Source: an uncultured Desulfovibrio sp. (GTDB lineage Bacteria > Desulfobacterota > Desulfovibrionia > Desulfovibrionales > Desulfovibrionaceae). Taken from it: DNA of 61,484 nucleotides. A program made the position numbers and the translations under genes. The notes beneath the pieces are model-generated. The model was given only the letters and a program-made list of their open reading frames with translations, was not told the DNA's origin and did not search any database. The stretch lies in the NCBI RefSeq assembly GCF_944324935.1, contig NZ_CALUYG010000011.1, positions 1 to 61,484 of the forward strand. Direction: 5' to 3'. Shown piece by piece: positions 3,972-11,728 of the stretch. Each line of letters begins with the position of its first letter. Position 1 is the first letter of the stretch.

Positions 3972-4662
3972 GTGTTGGGTTTCGACAGGCTGTTCACCCT
4001 TTCCTCCTCCGTCAAGCTGGAAGCTGCGCACAAACCCACGATCCAGCAAGGAGAGGGGTGAACAGCCATAAAAATGCCTAACTTGCGGCCAGAGGCCGAG
4101 AGGAAATGGGTAAGCGGCGGACAGCCCGCGGCGGACAGGCGCAGCAGCAGGCGAAGGCATTCCGCTCATCCCCCCTGCGTGCAGGAGGGATGAGCGCCAT
4201 CAGGGGGGGGGCGTTTTCCGGGAGTGGCGGGGCCGTCTCCGTCGGCATGCGGTTCACAGGCGTTTCCTCCGTCATATTTTTCAGCGGGTCGCAGGCATCT
4301 GCCAGCACGATGCCGGCACTGCCGGCCGCATGCGTATGACCCGTCCGCCTGTCCCCTCTCTGCCGCGGGATGTCCTGCCGGCGGGGGAGGGGGCCTTGTC
4401 CGTGACGGAAATCGCACGCCGCGGCGGCAAAGAAGGATGGACAATCCTCACAAGATGTGGGAAAGAGGCAAAGGTATCCCTGTTGCCGCGTGACCGTGAT
4501 ACAGGTGAACCGCTTCAACTGTAACAAATTGTTTCCAATCGCGTCACGACGACGGCGATCGGGAACAGGTGGGGAAACAGCATCGTCCGTCATGTGCGGC
4601 GTTCTCTGGACCGTTTTGGACGGAGGCATGGCGCCATGATGTGTTTTGAAAGGGGAGATGCC
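3972..4662. other. Gene-free gap with an inverted repeat
   Basis: No convincing gene in either strand over about 690 bases. The visible structure is a 12-base perfect inverted repeat, GGCTGTTCACCC (3988-3999) and its complement (4056-4067), enclosing a smaller pair TGGGTTT/AAACCCA. It has no T-tract, so it could be an RNA structure, a repeat or a mobile-element remnant. The promoter of the downstream polymer locus is presumably in the second half; I could not choose one. Confidence 0.4.
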
Positions 4663-6138
4663 TTGCGCGCCAATATCCTTTGCGCCGGTCTGGGGACGCG
4701 TCTGCGTCCGTTTACCTATATAAAGCCCAAGCCGCTGCTGAGCATCGGCGGCTACCCGCTGGTGGAGCGCACCATCCGCCAGCTCCGCGCCGACGGGGTG
4801 GACGACATCGCGCTGGTGGTGGGCTACAAGCGGGAGTGCTTTGAATACCTGCGGGAGCGCTACGGCGTGCGGCTCATCGTGTCCGAATGCTACGACACGG
4901 CCAACAACTTCTCGTCGCTGGAGCTGGTGGCGGACAGGCTGGGAGACAGCCTCGTCATCGACGGGGATCTCTACATCCGGCGGCCGCTGGTGCCGCTGGT
5001 GCGCCCCGGGGTCTCGCAGTTCATTACCCAGAAGACGGAACGCGGCAGGGAGTGGGAGCTCATCACCGACGCGACGGATCGTGTGGTGGCGGTGAAGAAG
5101 GATTCGCCCGACGGCTATGCCATGTCCGGCGTTTCGTACTGGACGGAGGAGGCCGCCGGCCTGCTGCGGCAGGAACTGGCCCGCAGCGGCCCGGACGATT
5201 ACTGGGAGGACGCCGCCATCCGCATCCTGGACCGCGTGCCGGTGTACGCCACCCGGACGAAGCTGCTGCAATGCGAGATCGACAGTCTGGACGATGTGCT
5301 GTCGCTGGGCCTGCTTTCGGCCGACGAACTGGCCGACCAGTGCTCGGAAACAAGCATGGCCGAAAAGCTCAAGGGGTTGACCAACGATACCTACCGTATC
5401 CGGCTGCACGGCAAGGGCGTCGTGCTGCGCATCCCCGGCAGAGGCACGGATCAGATCATCGACCGCACGCTGGAATCGGCCATGCTGGGCCTGCTCGACG
5501 GCATGGACATCACGCCGCGCTGCAGCTTCTACTCCGGCGGCATCAAGACCACGGACTTCCTGGAAGAGTATGCGGTGCTGACCCCGGAAAGTCTGGACGC
5601 GTCCACCATCGCCGGCGTGGCCGGCATCATGCGGCGGCTGCACGCCATCGCCCTGCCGCAGGGCTTCAGGGAGCAGTACGGCCCCAATGCGGCCCTGTCG
5701 GTGCTCAATGAAGTCAAGCTCTACGAGCGCCAGAGCGGCATCAACCTGCTGGCCGATGAGGAACGCCGCCAGATCTACGATTTCGCCCGCGAGATGGACA
5801 GGGACGAAAAGCGTTTCTGCCACCGGGACTTCGTGCTGGAGAACATCCTTCGCCGCGGCGACCGCATGCAGCTCATCGATTTCGAGTACGCCTGTTTCTG
5901 CTCGCCGTACTGGGATTACGCCAGCTTCGTCACGGAGACGCGCCTTGCCGGGGAACGGCTGGAGACCTTCGTACGCCGCTGCGGCATGGACCGGCGGCGT
6001 CTGCTCAAGGCCATGATCATCGTGGACTACATCTGGGGTCTGTGGGGCTTCTACCGGGAGTGCATCGACTACGGCCGCGGCCGCATCGCGGAGATGGACA
6101 GGAATCTGCGCCTGTTGCAGGCGGGGGGCACGCTGTGA
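4663..6138 (+). CDS. Fused LicC-like cytidylyltransferase and LicA-like choline kinase
   Basis: 491 aa. Residues 1-225 are a nucleotidyltransferase with LCAGLGTRLRPFTYIKPKPL at the very N-terminus, as in LicC (CTP:phosphocholine cytidylyltransferase). Residues 230-490 are a LicA/choline-kinase-type fold: GLTNDTYR loop, catalytic HRDFVLEN (H387) and metal-binding LIDFEYA (D406). One chain would thus phosphorylate choline (or ethanolamine) and activate it to the CDP form. I chose TTG at 4663: AGGGGAG lies at the right distance and the nucleotide-binding loop then begins at residue 5, as in the family; ATG 4636 is the alternative. It overlaps the next gene by 4 bases. Confidence 0.85.
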   Translation: MRANILCAGLGTRLRPFTYIKPKPLLSIGGYPLVERTIRQLRADGVDDIALVVGYKRECFEYLRERYGVRLIVSECYDTANNFSSLELVADRLGDSLVIDGDLYIRRPLVPLVRPGVSQFITQKTERGREWELITDATDRVVAVKKDSPDGYAMSGVSYWTEEAAGLLRQELARSGPDDYWEDAAIRILDRVPVYATRTKLLQCEIDSLDDVLSLGLLSADELADQCSETSMAEKLKGLTNDTYRIRLHGKGVVLRIPGRGTDQIIDRTLESAMLGLLDGMDITPRCSFYSGGIKTTDFLEEYAVLTPESLDASTIAGVAGIMRRLHAIALPQGFREQYGPNAALSVLNEVKLYERQSGINLLADEERRQIYDFAREMDRDEKRFCHRDFVLENILRRGDRMQLIDFEYACFCSPYWDYASFVTETRLAGERLETFVRRCGMDRRRLLKAMIIVDYIWGLWGFYRECIDYGRGRIAEMDRNLRLLQAGGTL

Positions 6139-7559
6139 AGGCTTCGTCCGTTCCGCCGGCGCTGCGCTATCTCGGCCTGTTGGCCCTGCTGGAGGCGGCC
6201 TTCCCCGCGCCCGCGCAGGCCTACCTTGATCCCGGCACGGGCAACATCCTCGTGTATGTGGCCATCAGTCTGGTGGGAACCCTCCTCTATTTCCTGAAAA
6301 ATCTGGTCTATGCGGTCATGGGCCGGGCCCGGGGCGAGCGGCCCGGCCGGCAGGAATTGCACCATGAACGCATCCTGCTTTTTTCCGAAGGGCGGACGTA
6401 TTATTATACGTTCAAGCCCATCATCGAAGCCCTCCTGCGGCGGGGCATCCCCTTTTCCTATATCACGATGGATCTGGAGGATCCGGCCCTGACCATCGAG
6501 GACGACCTCATGGACTCCCGCTACATCGGCAACGGCGCGGCGGCCTACGCACGGGCGGCGGGCCGCCGGGCGGACGTCATGCTGTCCACCACGCCCAACA
6601 TCGGCACGCCGGGCTTCCCCATGCCCCGGCCGCGCCGGGTGCGCTGCCTGGCCCATGTCTGCCACGGCGTGGGCGACATCGCCATGTATCAGAAAGGTTC
6701 TCTCGACCATTACGACGCCGTGCTCATGGTGGGGGACTTCATGCTGCCGGGCATACGCCGGCTGGAGGAGCTGCGCGGGCTGCCCGCCAAGGAATGCGTC
6801 TCCCTCGGTCTGCCCTATCTGGACGAGCTGGCGCGCAAGGCGAAGCCGAAGCAGGGGCAAAGCACGCCGCCCGTGGTGCTGGTGGCCCCGTCCTGGGGCA
6901 ACAAGGGCTGTCTTTCGGTCTGCGGACCGCAATTCCTGGTGGATCTGGCCCGGGCGGGCCATGAGGTCATCTTCCGGCCCCATCCGCAGTCGCTCAAGGT
7001 GGAGACGGACATGCTGACCGCCATCCATGAACTGTTGCGCGATTTCCCCAACGTGCGGTTCGATACGGACATGGACGCCACGGCATCCATGAGCCGGGCC
7101 GACGTTATGATCTCCGACAAGTCCTGCGTGCGCTTCGACTTCGCTTTCCTCTACGAAAAGCCGGTTATCACGCTGGATATCCCGGTACGCAATCCCGAAC
7201 TCTACGAAGTGGCGGACCTGGGCGTGATCTGGGAGGATACCGTGGCCGCCCGGCTGGGCGAGGTCGTCGCCCCGGATCAGTTCGACCGCATCCTGCCCGC
7301 CGTGGAGCGGGCCCTGGGCATGCCGTCCGCGGCTCTGGCGGCCTTTCGCGATCAGTGCGTGGCCTGCCGGGGCTGGAGCGGCGAAGCCATCGTGGACTGG
7401 ACGCTGGATGTGCTGCGGCGTCACGACGCCCGCGAGGACGAGCGGACGACGGATGCCCCGCGGCAGGACGGCACGCCCGGCGGCCAGCCAGGGACGACGG
7501 CCGGAACGACGCCCGAGACGACATCGGGAGCGGCGTGCCCGGGACAGGCTTCCGCATGA
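6135..7559 (+). CDS. CDP-glycerol glycerophosphotransferase-like (TagF family) protein
   Basis: 474 aa. The GTG start overlaps the upstream stop as GTGA, indicating coupling. A signal-like hydrophobic N-terminus ending in PAQA precedes a membrane helix (about residues 33-55). The remainder matches poly(glycerophosphate) glycerophosphotransferases: CHGVGD, SWGNKG, FRPHPQS and a late SDKSCVRFDFAF segment. The family transfers phospho-polyol units from CDP-activated donors onto surface polymers. The last 50 residues are low-complexity (Asp, Thr, Gly). The substrate cannot be read from sequence; with the CDP-choline-type gene next door, a phospho-substituted polymer is likely. Confidence 0.8.
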   Translation: MKASSVPPALRYLGLLALLEAAFPAPAQAYLDPGTGNILVYVAISLVGTLLYFLKNLVYAVMGRARGERPGRQELHHERILLFSEGRTYYYTFKPIIEALLRRGIPFSYITMDLEDPALTIEDDLMDSRYIGNGAAAYARAAGRRADVMLSTTPNIGTPGFPMPRPRRVRCLAHVCHGVGDIAMYQKGSLDHYDAVLMVGDFMLPGIRRLEELRGLPAKECVSLGLPYLDELARKAKPKQGQSTPPVVLVAPSWGNKGCLSVCGPQFLVDLARAGHEVIFRPHPQSLKVETDMLTAIHELLRDFPNVRFDTDMDATASMSRADVMISDKSCVRFDFAFLYEKPVITLDIPVRNPELYEVADLGVIWEDTVAARLGEVVAPDQFDRILPAVERALGMPSAALAAFRDQCVACRGWSGEAIVDWTLDVLRRHDAREDERTTDAPRQDGTPGGQPGTTAGTTPETTSGAACPGQASA

Positions 7560-7711: not shown

Positions 7712-10252
7712 ATGCTGTCATTGCTTTACGAGATATTCATCCTGCCCATTGAGATCATCTACCGCGCCATCTATCTTGGCAGCGTGCAGCTCACCGGCAA
7801 TTACGGCCTGAGCATCCTTGTGCTCTCGGCCGTGAGCGCCGTGGCCTTCATCCCGCTGGGGCGGCTGGCCGTGGGCATGCAGGCCGGAGAAAAGAAGGTG
7901 CAACAGATCATGGCTCCCCAGATCGCCCGCATCCGCAGCGAGTCCAGGGGGGCGGAACGCCAGCGCCGCATCAACCGGCTGTATCGCCGCTATGCCTATC
8001 ATCCGCTGCTGGCCATCCGCTCGGCCTTCGGCGTGGCCCTGCAGATCCCCTTTCTGACGGGCGCGTACTACATGATCCTGAGCCTCGACCAGCTGCGGGG
8101 GCAATCCTTCCTCTGCATCGCCGACCTTTCGCAGCCGGACGGTCTGCTCTGGGGCGTGAATTTCCTGCCTGTCCTCATGACCGTGGTGAACATCATCGCC
8201 ACCTTCACCACCCCGGGCCTGAGCCGCAAGGACAGGCTCCAGGCCGTGCTCATCGCCTTTTTCTTCCTCCTGCTGCTCTATGGCGCGGCCTCGGCCCTGC
8301 TCATCTTCTGGACCATGAACAACGTCTTCTTCCTGCTCCAGAACCTGCGTCTGCCGGTGAAGCTGCCGCGCTTCCGCAAGCCCGTCTTTGTCCAGGGCGC
8401 CATGAGCACGGCCTCGGTCTCGCTGCTGCGCAGCGTGTACGGCCTGTCCTGCGCCGGGCTGGCCGCGCTGCTCTTCCTCTATGTGCCGTTCCAGACCTAC
8501 GCCTCCGATCCGGCCTTCTTCGCCAGCGGGCCGCTGGACGTGCTGCTGGGCATGGTGCGCTATCTGTCGCTGACCTTCTTCATCGTCTTCGTGCTCTGGT
8601 TGTGGTTCCCCGCCCGGGGCAAGACCATCCCGGCCTTTGTGGCCTTCTGGGCCCTGTGTCTGGCCTTTGTGAACGTCTTCGTGCTGACCGGCGATTTCGG
8701 CGCGCTGGACGGCACCCGCTTCCTGGACGAGGCCCGCATCGGCCGGCCCATGCGGCTCTTTGCCGACGCCCTGCTGCCCGTGTTCGTGGCGCTGGCGGCG
8801 GCGGTCGCCGCCTTTGTCCCGGCGCGGGCGCGCCGGGCGCTGCCGGCCGCATTGTCCGTCGCGCTCTTTTCCCTGCTGGCCCTGACGGGCTATGCCGGCC
8901 TTTCCGCGCTGGGCGCGGTGGAGGAGGATACGGCCTTCACGCCGCCGCCCTACGCGCAGAGCATGCAGGCCTATTCCCGCGACGGGGAAAACGTCATCGT
9001 GGTCATCATGGACATGTTCACGGGCGGTCATATCGAAAAGATGCTGGACGATCCGTGGTTCGAGGACTTCCGGGCCGGCATGGACGGCTTCGTCTGGTAT
9101 CCCGACACGGTGTCCATGGCCGACGCCACGGTGCTGAGCCTGCCCAGCATCTACGGCGGCCACGGCTACAGCCCGGCGGCCGTCAACGGGCGGCGCTCCC
9201 TGACGCTGGAGGAGAACATCAACAAGGCCTTCGCCCTCATGCCCCGCAACTTCGCGGCGCATGACTTCGACGTGTCCGTCATCAACGGTCTGGAATACTT
9301 CAATGAAGAACTCTACGCCCGGCACGGGGGCAAGGCGGACAACATCCTCACCGTGCCGCGCGTGCGCCGGACGTTTTTGCGCAAGTACTACGACGACGTG
9401 AGTCTGCGCGACTTCAGCGGTTTCTTCGCCATGCTGGGCCTTTTCCAGGCCTCGCCGGACATGCTCAAGCAGAAGCTCTACGACGACGGCAACTGGAAGA
9501 ACGCCGGAGACGGCATCCTGGCCGCCAGCATGGATTTCTACAAGGAAGAGGACGCCTACTTCCGCTATGTGTTCACGTCCGGCATCACGGCGGACGCGCC
9601 GCGCAGCACGGCCAAGATCTTTTATACCATGCTCTCGCATTACATGTGGCATTACGCGCCCGACCTCGTGGACGGCACGCCGCGCATCGTGGCCGATCCC
9701 TGCCCGGAGACGGAAGGGCAGCTCCTGCACAAGGGCGGCGTCCTGCCGGAGCACTACTACGCGGAACGCCACCTCATGCGCTATCTTATGATCTTTTTCG
9801 CGCAGCTCAAGGAGGCGGGCGTCTACGACAACTCGCGTATCATCCTGGTCTCCGACCACGGCGAGCGGGACAGCCAGATGGTGGCCCGCGCCTACAACGA
9901 CGGCAGGGAATTCGCCGACGGCGTCCCCTACGGCAGCGGACGCTACGCCCCCGGCCGGCCCCACGCCCTGCTCATGGTCAAGGAGCCCGGCCGGCGCGGG
10001 CCGCTGCGCATCAACGAGGCCTTCATGTCCAGCGCCGACGTGCCGCTGCTGGCCCTGAAAGGCATTGGCACATGCGACGAGTTCTCCCTGTATGACCCGG
10101 CCCGCGTGCCGGCGCCGCGTGTGCTGACCCACGCCCGCGGCGGCGCGCGCTGGAGCGAGCATAAGCGCAAGGCCTACATCTACGAACAGCACCGGCTGGA
10201 AGGGACCCTCTTCGACCCGGCCCGCAATACCTACGACGGGGACTATGAGTAG
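7712..10252 (+). CDS. YidC/Oxa1-like membrane domain fused to a phosphotransferase (alkaline-phosphatase fold)
   Basis: 846 aa. Residues 1-215 resemble the YidC/Oxa1 core: NYGLSILVLS helix, basic cytosolic loop, HPLLAIRSAF and QIPFLTGAY. About four further membrane helices follow (215-410). From residue 430 there is an alkaline-phosphatase-superfamily domain as in LtaS and EptA: metal-site VVIMDMF (D434), probable nucleophile Thr473 in ADATVLSLPS, which lines up with the EptA/MCR catalytic Thr, and VSDHGERD (D715, H716). The Arg that lines the YidC groove is Ala43 here, so insertase activity is doubtful. Probable role: transfer of a phospho-group onto an exported polymer or lipid. No Cys nucleophile, so not a sulfatase. 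Confidence 0.85.
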   Translation: MLSLLYEIFILPIEIIYRAIYLGSVQLTGNYGLSILVLSAVSAVAFIPLGRLAVGMQAGEKKVQQIMAPQIARIRSESRGAERQRRINRLYRRYAYHPLLAIRSAFGVALQIPFLTGAYYMILSLDQLRGQSFLCIADLSQPDGLLWGVNFLPVLMTVVNIIATFTTPGLSRKDRLQAVLIAFFFLLLLYGAASALLIFWTMNNVFFLLQNLRLPVKLPRFRKPVFVQGAMSTASVSLLRSVYGLSCAGLAALLFLYVPFQTYASDPAFFASGPLDVLLGMVRYLSLTFFIVFVLWLWFPARGKTIPAFVAFWALCLAFVNVFVLTGDFGALDGTRFLDEARIGRPMRLFADALLPVFVALAAAVAAFVPARARRALPAALSVALFSLLALTGYAGLSALGAVEEDTAFTPPPYAQSMQAYSRDGENVIVVIMDMFTGGHIEKMLDDPWFEDFRAGMDGFVWYPDTVSMADATVLSLPSIYGGHGYSPAAVNGRRSLTLEENINKAFALMPRNFAAHDFDVSVINGLEYFNEELYARHGGKADNILTVPRVRRTFLRKYYDDVSLRDFSGFFAMLGLFQASPDMLKQKLYDDGNWKNAGDGILAASMDFYKEEDAYFRYVFTSGITADAPRSTAKIFYTMLSHYMWHYAPDLVDGTPRIVADPCPETEGQLLHKGGVLPEHYYAERHLMRYLMIFFAQLKEAGVYDNSRIILVSDHGERDSQMVARAYNDGREFADGVPYGSGRYAPGRPHALLMVKEPGRRGPLRINEAFMSSADVPLLALKGIGTCDEFSLYDPARVPAPRVLTHARGGARWSEHKRKAYIYEQHRLEGTLFDPARNTYDGDYE

Positions 10253-10345: not shown

Positions 10346-11443
10346 ATGAGCACACAGGCATCACGGGTGGCGGACATCCCCAGCCCGGCGGCAGCGGCGG
10401 CGCGCAGGATACTCTTCCGGCGCTATCGTACATACGGCATAGCGGTAGCCGTGCTTTCCGGCATGTCCTATGGTCTGTATTCGGCCTTTATGACGCTGGG
10501 CATGAGTCTTGGCGTCTGGAGCGGCTGGTATGAAGGGGATTCCGGCCTGTCCCCCGTGGCGACGCTCTTTCTGCTCAGCGCGCTGGGAGCGGCCGTGACG
10601 GACTGTTTCAGCGCGCTCTGGGCGCTTGCGCTGGCCGCCGTCAAGGGCAAGCTCGGCGACGTGCCCCGCAGCTGGCGGACGCGCCCGGGGGCCATTATGA
10701 CCCTGGCCGCCTTCATCGGCGGGCCGCTGGCCAGCACCTGTTATGTGCTGGGCCTGCAGAACGCCGGCTCGGTGGTCGTGCCGCTGAGCGCCCTGTGCCC
10801 GGCCATCGGGGCCATCCTGGGGCGGGCGATCTTCGGCCAGACGCTCAATGTGCGGATCATGGCGGGCATTCTCATCTGTTTTGCCGCCAGTTTTATGATC
10901 GGCAGCACCGGATTGACGGACGACGCCCCCGCCCACCTCTTCCTGGGGCTGGCCTTCGGCCTGCTGGCCGCGCTGGGCTGGGGCATCGAGGGATGCGTCT
11001 GCGGTTACGGCACGGCGCTCATCGATCCCGAGGTGGGCATCACCATCCGGCAGATCACCTCCGGTCTGTCCAATCTCCTGCTGCTGGTGCCGCTGTTCGG
11101 CTGGCTCGGCGGGGCGGATGCGGCGGGCATGGTCGCCGCCGCCTTTACGGACGGGCAGTCGGTGGGCTGGTTTGTGGTGGCCGGCCTCTGCGCCTATTTT
11201 GCCTTCATGCTCTGGTATCAGGGCAACGCCATGTGCGGGGCCGCCCTGGGCATGGCCTGCAACGGGGCCTTTTCCTTCTGGGGGCCGTTCTTCATCTGGC
11301 TCGTGCTGGGGGTCTGCCATGGCATGGAGGGCAAGAACATGCCGCCCATCGCCTGGCTGGCCTCGCTGGTCATGGTCGGCGGCATCTTCCTTATCGCCGT
11401 CGATCCGCTTGAACTATTCCGGCGCGGCCGGCAGGGGAGGTAG
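10346..11443 (+). CDS. DMT/EamA-type permease, LicB-like
   Basis: 365 aa, with about ten hydrophobic helices in two similar halves, as in the drug/metabolite transporter superfamily. Gly-rich helix motifs such as GGPLASTCYVLGLQNAG match the EamA pattern. The start has AAGGA in front. LicB choline permeases belong to this superfamily, and the gene sits downstream of a licC-licA-like fusion, so choline or ethanolamine uptake is a reasonable guess. Other substrates (sugars, amino acids) remain possible; the sequence does not decide. Confidence 0.75.
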   Translation: MSTQASRVADIPSPAAAAARRILFRRYRTYGIAVAVLSGMSYGLYSAFMTLGMSLGVWSGWYEGDSGLSPVATLFLLSALGAAVTDCFSALWALALAAVKGKLGDVPRSWRTRPGAIMTLAAFIGGPLASTCYVLGLQNAGSVVVPLSALCPAIGAILGRAIFGQTLNVRIMAGILICFAASFMIGSTGLTDDAPAHLFLGLAFGLLAALGWGIEGCVCGYGTALIDPEVGITIRQITSGLSNLLLLVPLFGWLGGADAAGMVAAAFTDGQSVGWFVVAGLCAYFAFMLWYQGNAMCGAALGMACNGAFSFWGPFFIWLVLGVCHGMEGKNMPPIAWLASLVMVGGIFLIAVDPLELFRRGRQGR

Positions 11444-11446
11444 GGG

Positions 11447-11728
11447 ATGAAGCCGCTCAACTTTGCCATCCTGGATTACATGACCACAGTTCCCGAAGCC
11501 TGCGCCGAGGATGTGGTGGAGGCGCTTGCGCCCAGGTACGGGAGATTCCGCGCCCTGACGGTGGAGTCCGTGCGTACGGCGCTTTTGACGGCCGCGGTCA
11601 ACGGCCTGCTGGAAGAAAGCCGGTGCGAGCTGGACGACGACCGCGACCTGCGTCTGTATTTTCGGGCGCATCCCGAGGGGGCGGCCACCATCATCAAATA
11701 CACCGGCGGCCCGCAGTCCCGCGACTGA
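11447..11728 (+). CDS. Small hypothetical protein, winged-helix-like
   Basis: 93 aa, soluble, no signal peptide. It begins 3 bases after the permease stop with GGGAGGTAGGGG before the ATG, so it is co-transcribed. The predicted helix-helix-helix-wing pattern (LDYMTTVPEACAEDVVEAL, then SVRTALLTAAVNGLLEES) resembles a small winged helix, but I do not recognise a family. It may regulate the locus or be an unrelated passenger. Confidence 0.6.
   Translation: MKPLNFAILDYMTTVPEACAEDVVEALAPRYGRFRALTVESVRTALLTAAVNGLLEESRCELDDDRDLRLYFRAHPEGAATIIKYTGGPQSRD

Follow-up and report, generated by a model that had tools for sequence, protein, structure and literature searches.

A YidC/Oxa1-like domain fused to an alkaline-phosphatase-type domain in Desulfovibrio, a candidate membrane component of surface tailoring

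The fusion gene and its occurrence

The window analysed here, positions 1 to 61,484 of contig NZ_CALUYG010000011.1 from an uncultured Desulfovibrio sp., encodes on its plus strand a protein of 846 amino acids (7712..10252) in which domain matches identify a YidC/Oxa1-like N-terminal half and an alkaline-phosphatase-type C-terminal half. The open reading frame is unbroken over its 846 codons, and the host genome assembly comprises 2.7 Mb at 99.8% completeness. Two genes precede the fusion gene on the same strand, encoding a LicC-LicA fusion and a TagF-like transferase, and two follow it, encoding an EamA/DMT transporter and a small conserved protein.

A contig search for homologues of the fusion recovered seven related loci, all labelled Desulfovibrio, of which four are 91–94% identical to the window protein, two from D. 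piger are 74% identical over the entire length and one is truncated at a contig edge. With six full-length homologues in the genus (74–94% identity), the fusion is not a chance frame. Using a profile of the full-length fusion (E 1e-25), we found relatives in 27 of 348 genomes of the class, all belonging to one family. A sample of 395 genomes of the phylum added a complete fusion from another family (G600, with an open frame of 1009 amino acids); the other matches outside the family, among the matches listed, covered the YidC region only. A profile of the C-terminal part alone matched strongly in 25 of the 348 genomes, every one of them a fusion carrier; among the 27 matching genomes, G042 joins the YidC part to a different C-terminal half and G311 has the N-terminal part alone, at a contig edge. 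No match to the fusion was present in plasmid and phage collections, and viral contigs scanned with both domain profiles encoded no relative in the matching stretches. The joining of a YidC-like domain to a phosphatase-fold domain is confirmed as a real and conserved architecture.

Tandem duplicates of the fusion gene are seen in two genomes (G070, L049:7150-12622; G294, L116:1-4775). Those of G070 have near-identical YidC domains (branch lengths 0.02 and 0.0095) within proteins of 879 and 939 amino acids.

The two halves of the fusion protein

The YidC/Oxa1-like domain occupies residues 1–212 (7712..8347, plus strand). Pfam 60KD_IMP (PF02096) matches residues 31–212 (E 4e-17, 63 bits against a cut-off of 35), and solved YidC structures are matched by the fusion itself (phmmer, E 5e-10) as well as by the family profile (E 3e-15 for E. 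coli YidC). We compared 18 fusions (alignment A3, which includes G042 and excludes G294; the partial fusions L047 and L052 are omitted from this and the other 18-row alignment) with housekeeping YidCs of the same family, namely 14 of 16 fetched loci, the short 302-residue form at L031 and the locus L026 being left aside. Ala43 (7838..7840, plus strand) pairs in the phmmer alignment with the groove arginine of E. coli YidC, the position having been counted by hand. Passages of PMC8675477 describe the arginine at this helix position as conserved and as sitting at the midplane of the bilayer. The corresponding residue is Asn in 11 of the fusions, Ala in 4, and Ser, Thr and Phe in one each, and is thus never basic, whereas all 14 housekeeping YidCs have Lys.

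A new charge appears elsewhere in the domain. Arg103 (8018..8020, plus strand), which is predicted to lie within the membrane at the start of the helix carrying the QIPF motif, is invariant in the 18 fusions, whereas the housekeeping YidCs have Gly (12) or Ser (2). Together with Glu60, Thr157, Asn160, Thr201 and an inserted Asn150, it belongs to a set of invariant residues specific to the fusions, none of which occurs in the housekeeping YidCs, and which, judging from the order of the helices in YidC, would line the groove. With invariant residues of their own and a changed groove position, the YidC-like domains of the fusions form a separate subfamily under its own constraints.

The residues of the core motifs, Gln111, Pro113, Trp200, Asn203 and Asn204, are common to the fusions and to housekeeping YidC, as would suit a domain that still served as a protein insertase or chaperone in cis, either for the attached membrane enzyme or for the hairpin protein encoded next to it. 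Short membrane hairpin proteins are typical YidC clients, and the TagF-like partner with its short hairpin would be a client of this kind. Against a retained insertase function stand the absence of a basic groove residue from all of the aligned fusions and the second, ordinary YidC that is encoded on another contig of the host genome; moreover, insertion by the domain of its own chain would hardly be feasible. We consider such a function quite improbable. The original prediction had read the 846-residue chain as a YidC/Oxa1-like core joined to a phosphatase-type domain, with the groove arginine exchanged for Ala43 and the first domain probably recruited away from ordinary insertion. The domain matches, the alignments and the intact reading frame agree with the first two of these points, and the non-basic groove, the second YidC and the neighbouring head-group activation and TagF-like genes agree with the third.

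Between the two domains, about five transmembrane helices are predicted for residues 237–398 (8420..8905, plus strand) from hydropathy segments and the distribution of Lys and Arg in the loops; in many relatives this membrane region is longer. Loops presumed to lie inside have Lys/Arg contents of 5/24, 2/9 and 3/13, and those presumed to lie outside 0/19, 3/20 and 1/32. The enrichment in the presumed inside loops places the C-terminal domain in the periplasm, and in LtaS and EptA the catalytic domain is likewise outside the membrane.

The alkaline-phosphatase-superfamily phosphotransferase-like domain spans residues 408–846 (8933..10249, plus strand). In comparison with the PDB, the C-terminal family profile matched choline-sulfatase best (1e-4), followed by LtaS (3e-4), which we take to be the S. 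aureus protein, and matched more weakly phosphonate monoester hydrolases (0.02–0.2) and phosphoethanolamine transferases (0.36 and above). Asp434, Thr473, His643, Glu685, Asp715 and His716 are identical in all 18 aligned C-terminal domains (alignment A4, which includes G294 and excludes G042, whose C-terminal half is unalignable). By analogy with EptA and LtaS, we assume that Thr473 (9128..9130, plus strand) is the nucleophile and that Asp434, His643, Asp715 and His716 are metal-site residues. Thr473 opens a T-x-x-S-x-P motif, in which Ser476 is conserved in 15 of the 18 sequences and Pro478 in 14.

The rank of choline-sulfatase as the top structural match, with phosphonate monoester hydrolases behind it, would also fit a hydrolytic domain that, instead of transferring a group, trims or terminates what the TagF-like enzyme has made, and a choline head group would suit a hydrolase of choline esters. 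However, sulfatases and phosphonate monoester hydrolases employ a formylglycine derived from Cys or Ser, whereas the candidate nucleophile of the fusions is Thr in all 18 aligned domains, and the anchor of five transmembrane helices resembles that of transferases. A hydrolytic role appears highly improbable to us.

The TagF-like partner and the head-group genes

The direct partner of the fusion gene (6135..7559, plus strand) encodes a TagF-like transferase whose N-terminal part is a membrane hairpin bearing the motif YLDPGTG, and its predicted start overlaps the upstream gene by 4 nucleotides. Pfam Glyphos_transf scores 21.7 bits on the protein, just short of the cut-off of 22.1, and the family profile of the catalytic part matches Cps3D (2e-4), TarL (3e-4) and TagF (2e-3) in the PDB. 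The motif stands ahead of the second hydrophobic stretch at the N-terminus in all 16 aligned rows, with the variants YMDPGTG in G042 and YLDPGSG in G086; the string YLDPGTG did not occur in the literature searched.

Since gene calls by codon scoring on this GC-rich DNA left some genes undetected (in L039, L044, L051, L145 and L146, among others), the adjacency of fusion and partner was rechecked by profile search. In 25 of the 28 genomes with the fusion (the 27 of the class and G600), the TagF-like gene is its direct neighbour; in G264 and G049, adjacency cannot be judged, as the contig breaks off about 300 and 21 nucleotides from the fusion, respectively. Across the 348 genomes of the class, the partner is present in 27, the fusion in 27 and both in 26. 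The partner lies before the fusion in some loci and after it in others, and this varying order indicates that the two genes have not simply been passed down together as a single block.

Stand-alone small proteins also match the TagF-like profile. One, of 68 amino acids (L144:9271-9477), lies in G065 near an unfused relative of the C-terminal domain and matches by its YLDPGTGS start, and another, of 64 amino acids (L145:3866-4060), adjoins such a relative in G136. These separate hairpin proteins provide an independent tie between the hairpin and phosphatase-fold enzymes. In G327 (L171:8003-10706), a TagF-like homologue of 382 amino acids, lacking both the YLDPGTG hairpin and a fusion, stands directly beside a gene for a phosphoenolpyruvate (PEP) mutase-cytidylyltransferase. 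Just upstream of this homologue, an open reading frame of 70 amino acids gives a weak match to the TagF-like profile (E 1e-4), perhaps representing the hairpin as a protein of its own.

Upstream of the TagF-like gene, a LicC-LicA fusion is encoded at 4636..6138 (plus strand; the start at 4636 is predicted and a longer one at 4594 is possible). In phmmer comparisons with the PDB, its residues 10–223 match the CTP:phosphocholine cytidylyltransferase 1jyk (E 1.3e-32) and its residues 232–481 the choline kinase 4r77 (E 7.5e-21), and the Pfam families NTP_transf_3 and Choline_kinase are both above cut-off. LicD (PF04991) had no match in the host genome; the same search was positive in 2 of 14 control genomes. 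Downstream of the fusion, at a LicB-like position, lies a gene for an EamA/DMT transporter (10367..11443, plus strand, with a predicted start), which scores 28.8 bits for EamA against a cut-off of 28.2 and has no match in the PDB; it is found in five genomes of the genus and not in the D. piger loci. The small conserved open reading frame that follows (11447..11728, plus strand, 93 amino acids) has no Pfam match and occurs in the same five genomes, at six loci, two of which are in one genome. It may or may not belong to the system.

The activating enzymes vary among the relatives. G086 and G042 have a nucleoside triphosphate (NTP) transferase alone, and a TagD-like cytidylyltransferase is the activator at seven loci and additionally in G111. 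G276 has an NTP transferase-aminotransferase fusion of PntC-like type, and in G600 a PEP mutase-cytidylyltransferase fusion and a phosphonopyruvate decarboxylase, both above cut-off, are encoded on the opposite strand beside the gene pair. G008 possesses two loci, one with LicC-LicA and the other with a TagD-like gene. The YidC domains of G276 and G278 are near-identical (branch lengths 0.015 and 0.046) and yet their activators differ. At four of the seven TagD-like loci there are genes for a permease and a binding protein, with PhnU2 and PhnS2 as their best NCBIfam matches, and at three of the seven there is one for a PhnT2-like ATPase; the three Phn-like proteins tested, one of each kind, all fell below the cut-offs of NCBI. 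We regard 2-aminoethylphosphonate (AEP) as a possible head group at these loci, as a lead and not an assignment.

Two further observations concern individual loci. The loci L114 and L115 of G276 and G278 look as though one head-group cassette had replaced another, with NTP transferase-aminotransferase in one and LicC-LicA in the other. In G600, two long genes with similar hydrophobic starts lie upstream of the pair on the other strand (L113:3-6121).

A possible route for surface decoration

That the fusion belongs to a surface-tailoring pathway is well supported by its gene context. Within it, we suggest that a lic/pnt-type system operates in four steps, with the fusion as its membrane and periplasmic end, a scheme that as a whole we find plausible at slightly less than even confidence. 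In the first step, for which homology is strong, LicC-LicA would make CDP-choline, and the relatives would activate a TagD-type or a phosphonate (AEP-like) group instead. The TagF-like enzyme, which its YLDPGTG hairpin may fasten to the inner face of the membrane, would then pass the phospho- or phosphono-head group from CDP or CMP to a membrane lipid carrier. In the third step, the YidC-like domain, no longer engaged in protein insertion, might scramble the lipid or pass it on to the outer leaflet by way of its polar groove. Finally, as the motifs support, Thr473 would attack the donor at a metal site comprising Asp434, Asp715 and His716, and the phosphatase-fold domain would move the phosphocholine or phosphonate onto a glycan in the periplasm. 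The TagF-like protein and the fusion would jointly replace LicD.

The third step leans on lipid scrambling observed in vitro. According to PMC10491306, lipids are scrambled in vitro by E. coli YidC and by yeast Oxa1 and Get1, nine members of the Oxa1 family show the activity in simulation, and scrambling is regarded as a general feature of insertases. The suggestion of the original prediction that the first domain might grip a lipid or polymer substrate is plausible, and we narrow it to lipid scrambling in the light of these in vitro findings. On this basis, we tentatively propose that the YidC-like domain could be a dedicated scramblase for lipid head groups that has given up insertion and brings phosphocholine or phosphonate, linked to a lipid, through the inner membrane.

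Several observations weigh against the four-step scheme. Scrambling that is general to insertases does not alone indicate a dedicated role, and the lipid carrier and glycan acceptor of the second to fourth steps are putative. AlphaFold returned a mean predicted local distance difference test score of 33.6 for the entire fusion chain and 34.5 for the C-terminal domain, from an input of the window protein and its six genus homologues only. The Sulfatase family (PF00884) reaches 17.3 bits in the window protein, below its cut-off of 25, although one longer relative clears it at 34 bits. E. coli OpgB aligns solely at one His and the SDH motif, with an hhalign probability of 3% (A4) or 85% (A1), and the profile comparison with E. 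coli EptC gave no useful alignment; nothing aligned at the nucleophile position in either comparison. The string T-x-x-S/T-x-P, sought in E. coli OpgB and EptC, was found in neither, and the pattern recurs once in the window fusion, at residue 262, so that the argument from this motif is one of conservation within the family and of analogy with EptA and LtaS. The EptA/LtaS-type label of the original prediction stands at the level of the motifs and draws little from the OpgB and EptC comparisons. The linkage to lic- and tag-like genes, which it had suggested looking for, is seen among the relatives, with the TagF-like gene adjoining the fusion and LicC-LicA or TagD-like genes nearby.

The gene context also has its counter-example. 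One of the two fusion genes of G111 has no TagF-like neighbour in view, being followed by an EptA-type gene and preceded by a short fragment of no family; the other copy is cut by a contig end, and the TagF-like gene of this genome lies behind the TagD-like gene, where a third contig ends. This case and the link of stand-alone hairpins to unfused phosphatase-fold domains pull the scheme in opposite directions. The downstream gene in G111 (L046:6790-8484) encodes an ordinary EptA-type phosphoethanolamine transferase, with Sulfatase and EptA_B_N above cut-off.

Two kinds of relatives separate the halves of the fusion. G042 (L044:8240-10699) retains the YidC-like domain beside a TagF-like gene and has a different C-terminal half. 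Conversely, weak matches to unfused C-terminal domains (E 6e-15 or worse) occur in G065, G136, G103 contig 79 and G346, and in the stretches retrieved around them, profile searching found no YidC-like gene; the domain can thus work without one, as in G065 and G136. Both situations would be expected if the YidC-like domain were an anchor or positioner that moves no lipid and holds on to either the TagF-like partner or the glycan acceptor, the donor being an outer-leaflet phospholipid as for LtaS and EptA, and to our knowledge enzymes of the LtaS/EptA type require no dedicated flippase. However, Thr157, Asn160 and Thr201 are spread across the predicted membrane helices, exceeding what docking by way of the cytosolic hairpin would need, provided that they lie in the groove as supposed, and we consider a pure anchor unlikely. 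For the C-terminal half of G042, neither Pfam nor the PDB gave a match; on visual inspection, this half contains a Thr and a DHG motif and is perhaps another phosphatase-fold family.

Returning to the proposed scramblase, the near-constant presence of the partner gene beside the fusion suggests that a protein-inserting fold has been reused to take a surface decoration, carried by a lipid, from one side of the membrane to the other. The relevance of the family lies in the combination of a YidC-like domain without a basic groove residue, a likely lipid-using enzyme and a near-fixed partner from a lipid or polymer pathway. Lipid scrambling by insertases has recently been reported in vitro, and the fusion family would make its physiological meaning directly testable. 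In addition, it would provide a candidate for the transferase that decorates sulfate reducers, among them the gut species D. piger, with phosphocholine and phosphonate.

The fusion resembles several known systems in part. By sequence, its first domain belongs to the same core family as the YidC/Oxa1/Alb3 insertases (PF02096), from which it differs in lacking the basic groove residue, in its own invariant set and in the attached enzyme. With LtaS, EptA and OpgB it has in common about five transmembrane helices followed by a periplasmic domain with an Asp, Thr, His, Asp-His pattern, but its sequence is very divergent, a YidC-like domain is attached and a TagF-like gene is paired with it; the putative first metal position is Asp in the fusion, where LtaS and EptA have Glu. 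In comparison with the lic locus (LicA-LicB-LicC-LicD), the LicC and LicA activities are united in one protein and a DMT transporter takes the LicB position, whereas the TagF-like gene and the fusion stand where LicD would be. Elements of pnt clusters (Ppm, PntC), namely PEP mutase-cytidylyltransferase and NTP transferase-aminotransferase fusions, lie beside the gene pair in two relatives; the main text of the pnt-cluster paper PMC6697681 contains none of the terms YidC, sulfatase and Desulfovibrio. Among the titles listed in searches of the literature, whose coverage mostly excludes subscription papers, none concerns a fusion of YidC to a phosphotransferase or sulfatase, and for phosphocholine and lipopolysaccharide in Desulfovibrio there was no relevant title among the matches listed.

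A similar design is that of the AT3-SGNH proteins, in which a membrane carrier is fused to a periplasmic transferase. If the scheme is correct, the YidC-like fusion would be their counterpart for phospho- and phosphono-groups, built from other folds and handling another group than these acyl carriers. According to PMC9558356, extracytoplasmic acylation requires an activated group that is carried through the membrane. Choline decoration is coupled to the transport of a lipid-linked precursor by TacF, which, as PMC13385700 describes, is a flippase that monitors the phosphocholine content of teichoic acid during transport and which belongs to the MOP superfamily, not to Oxa1.

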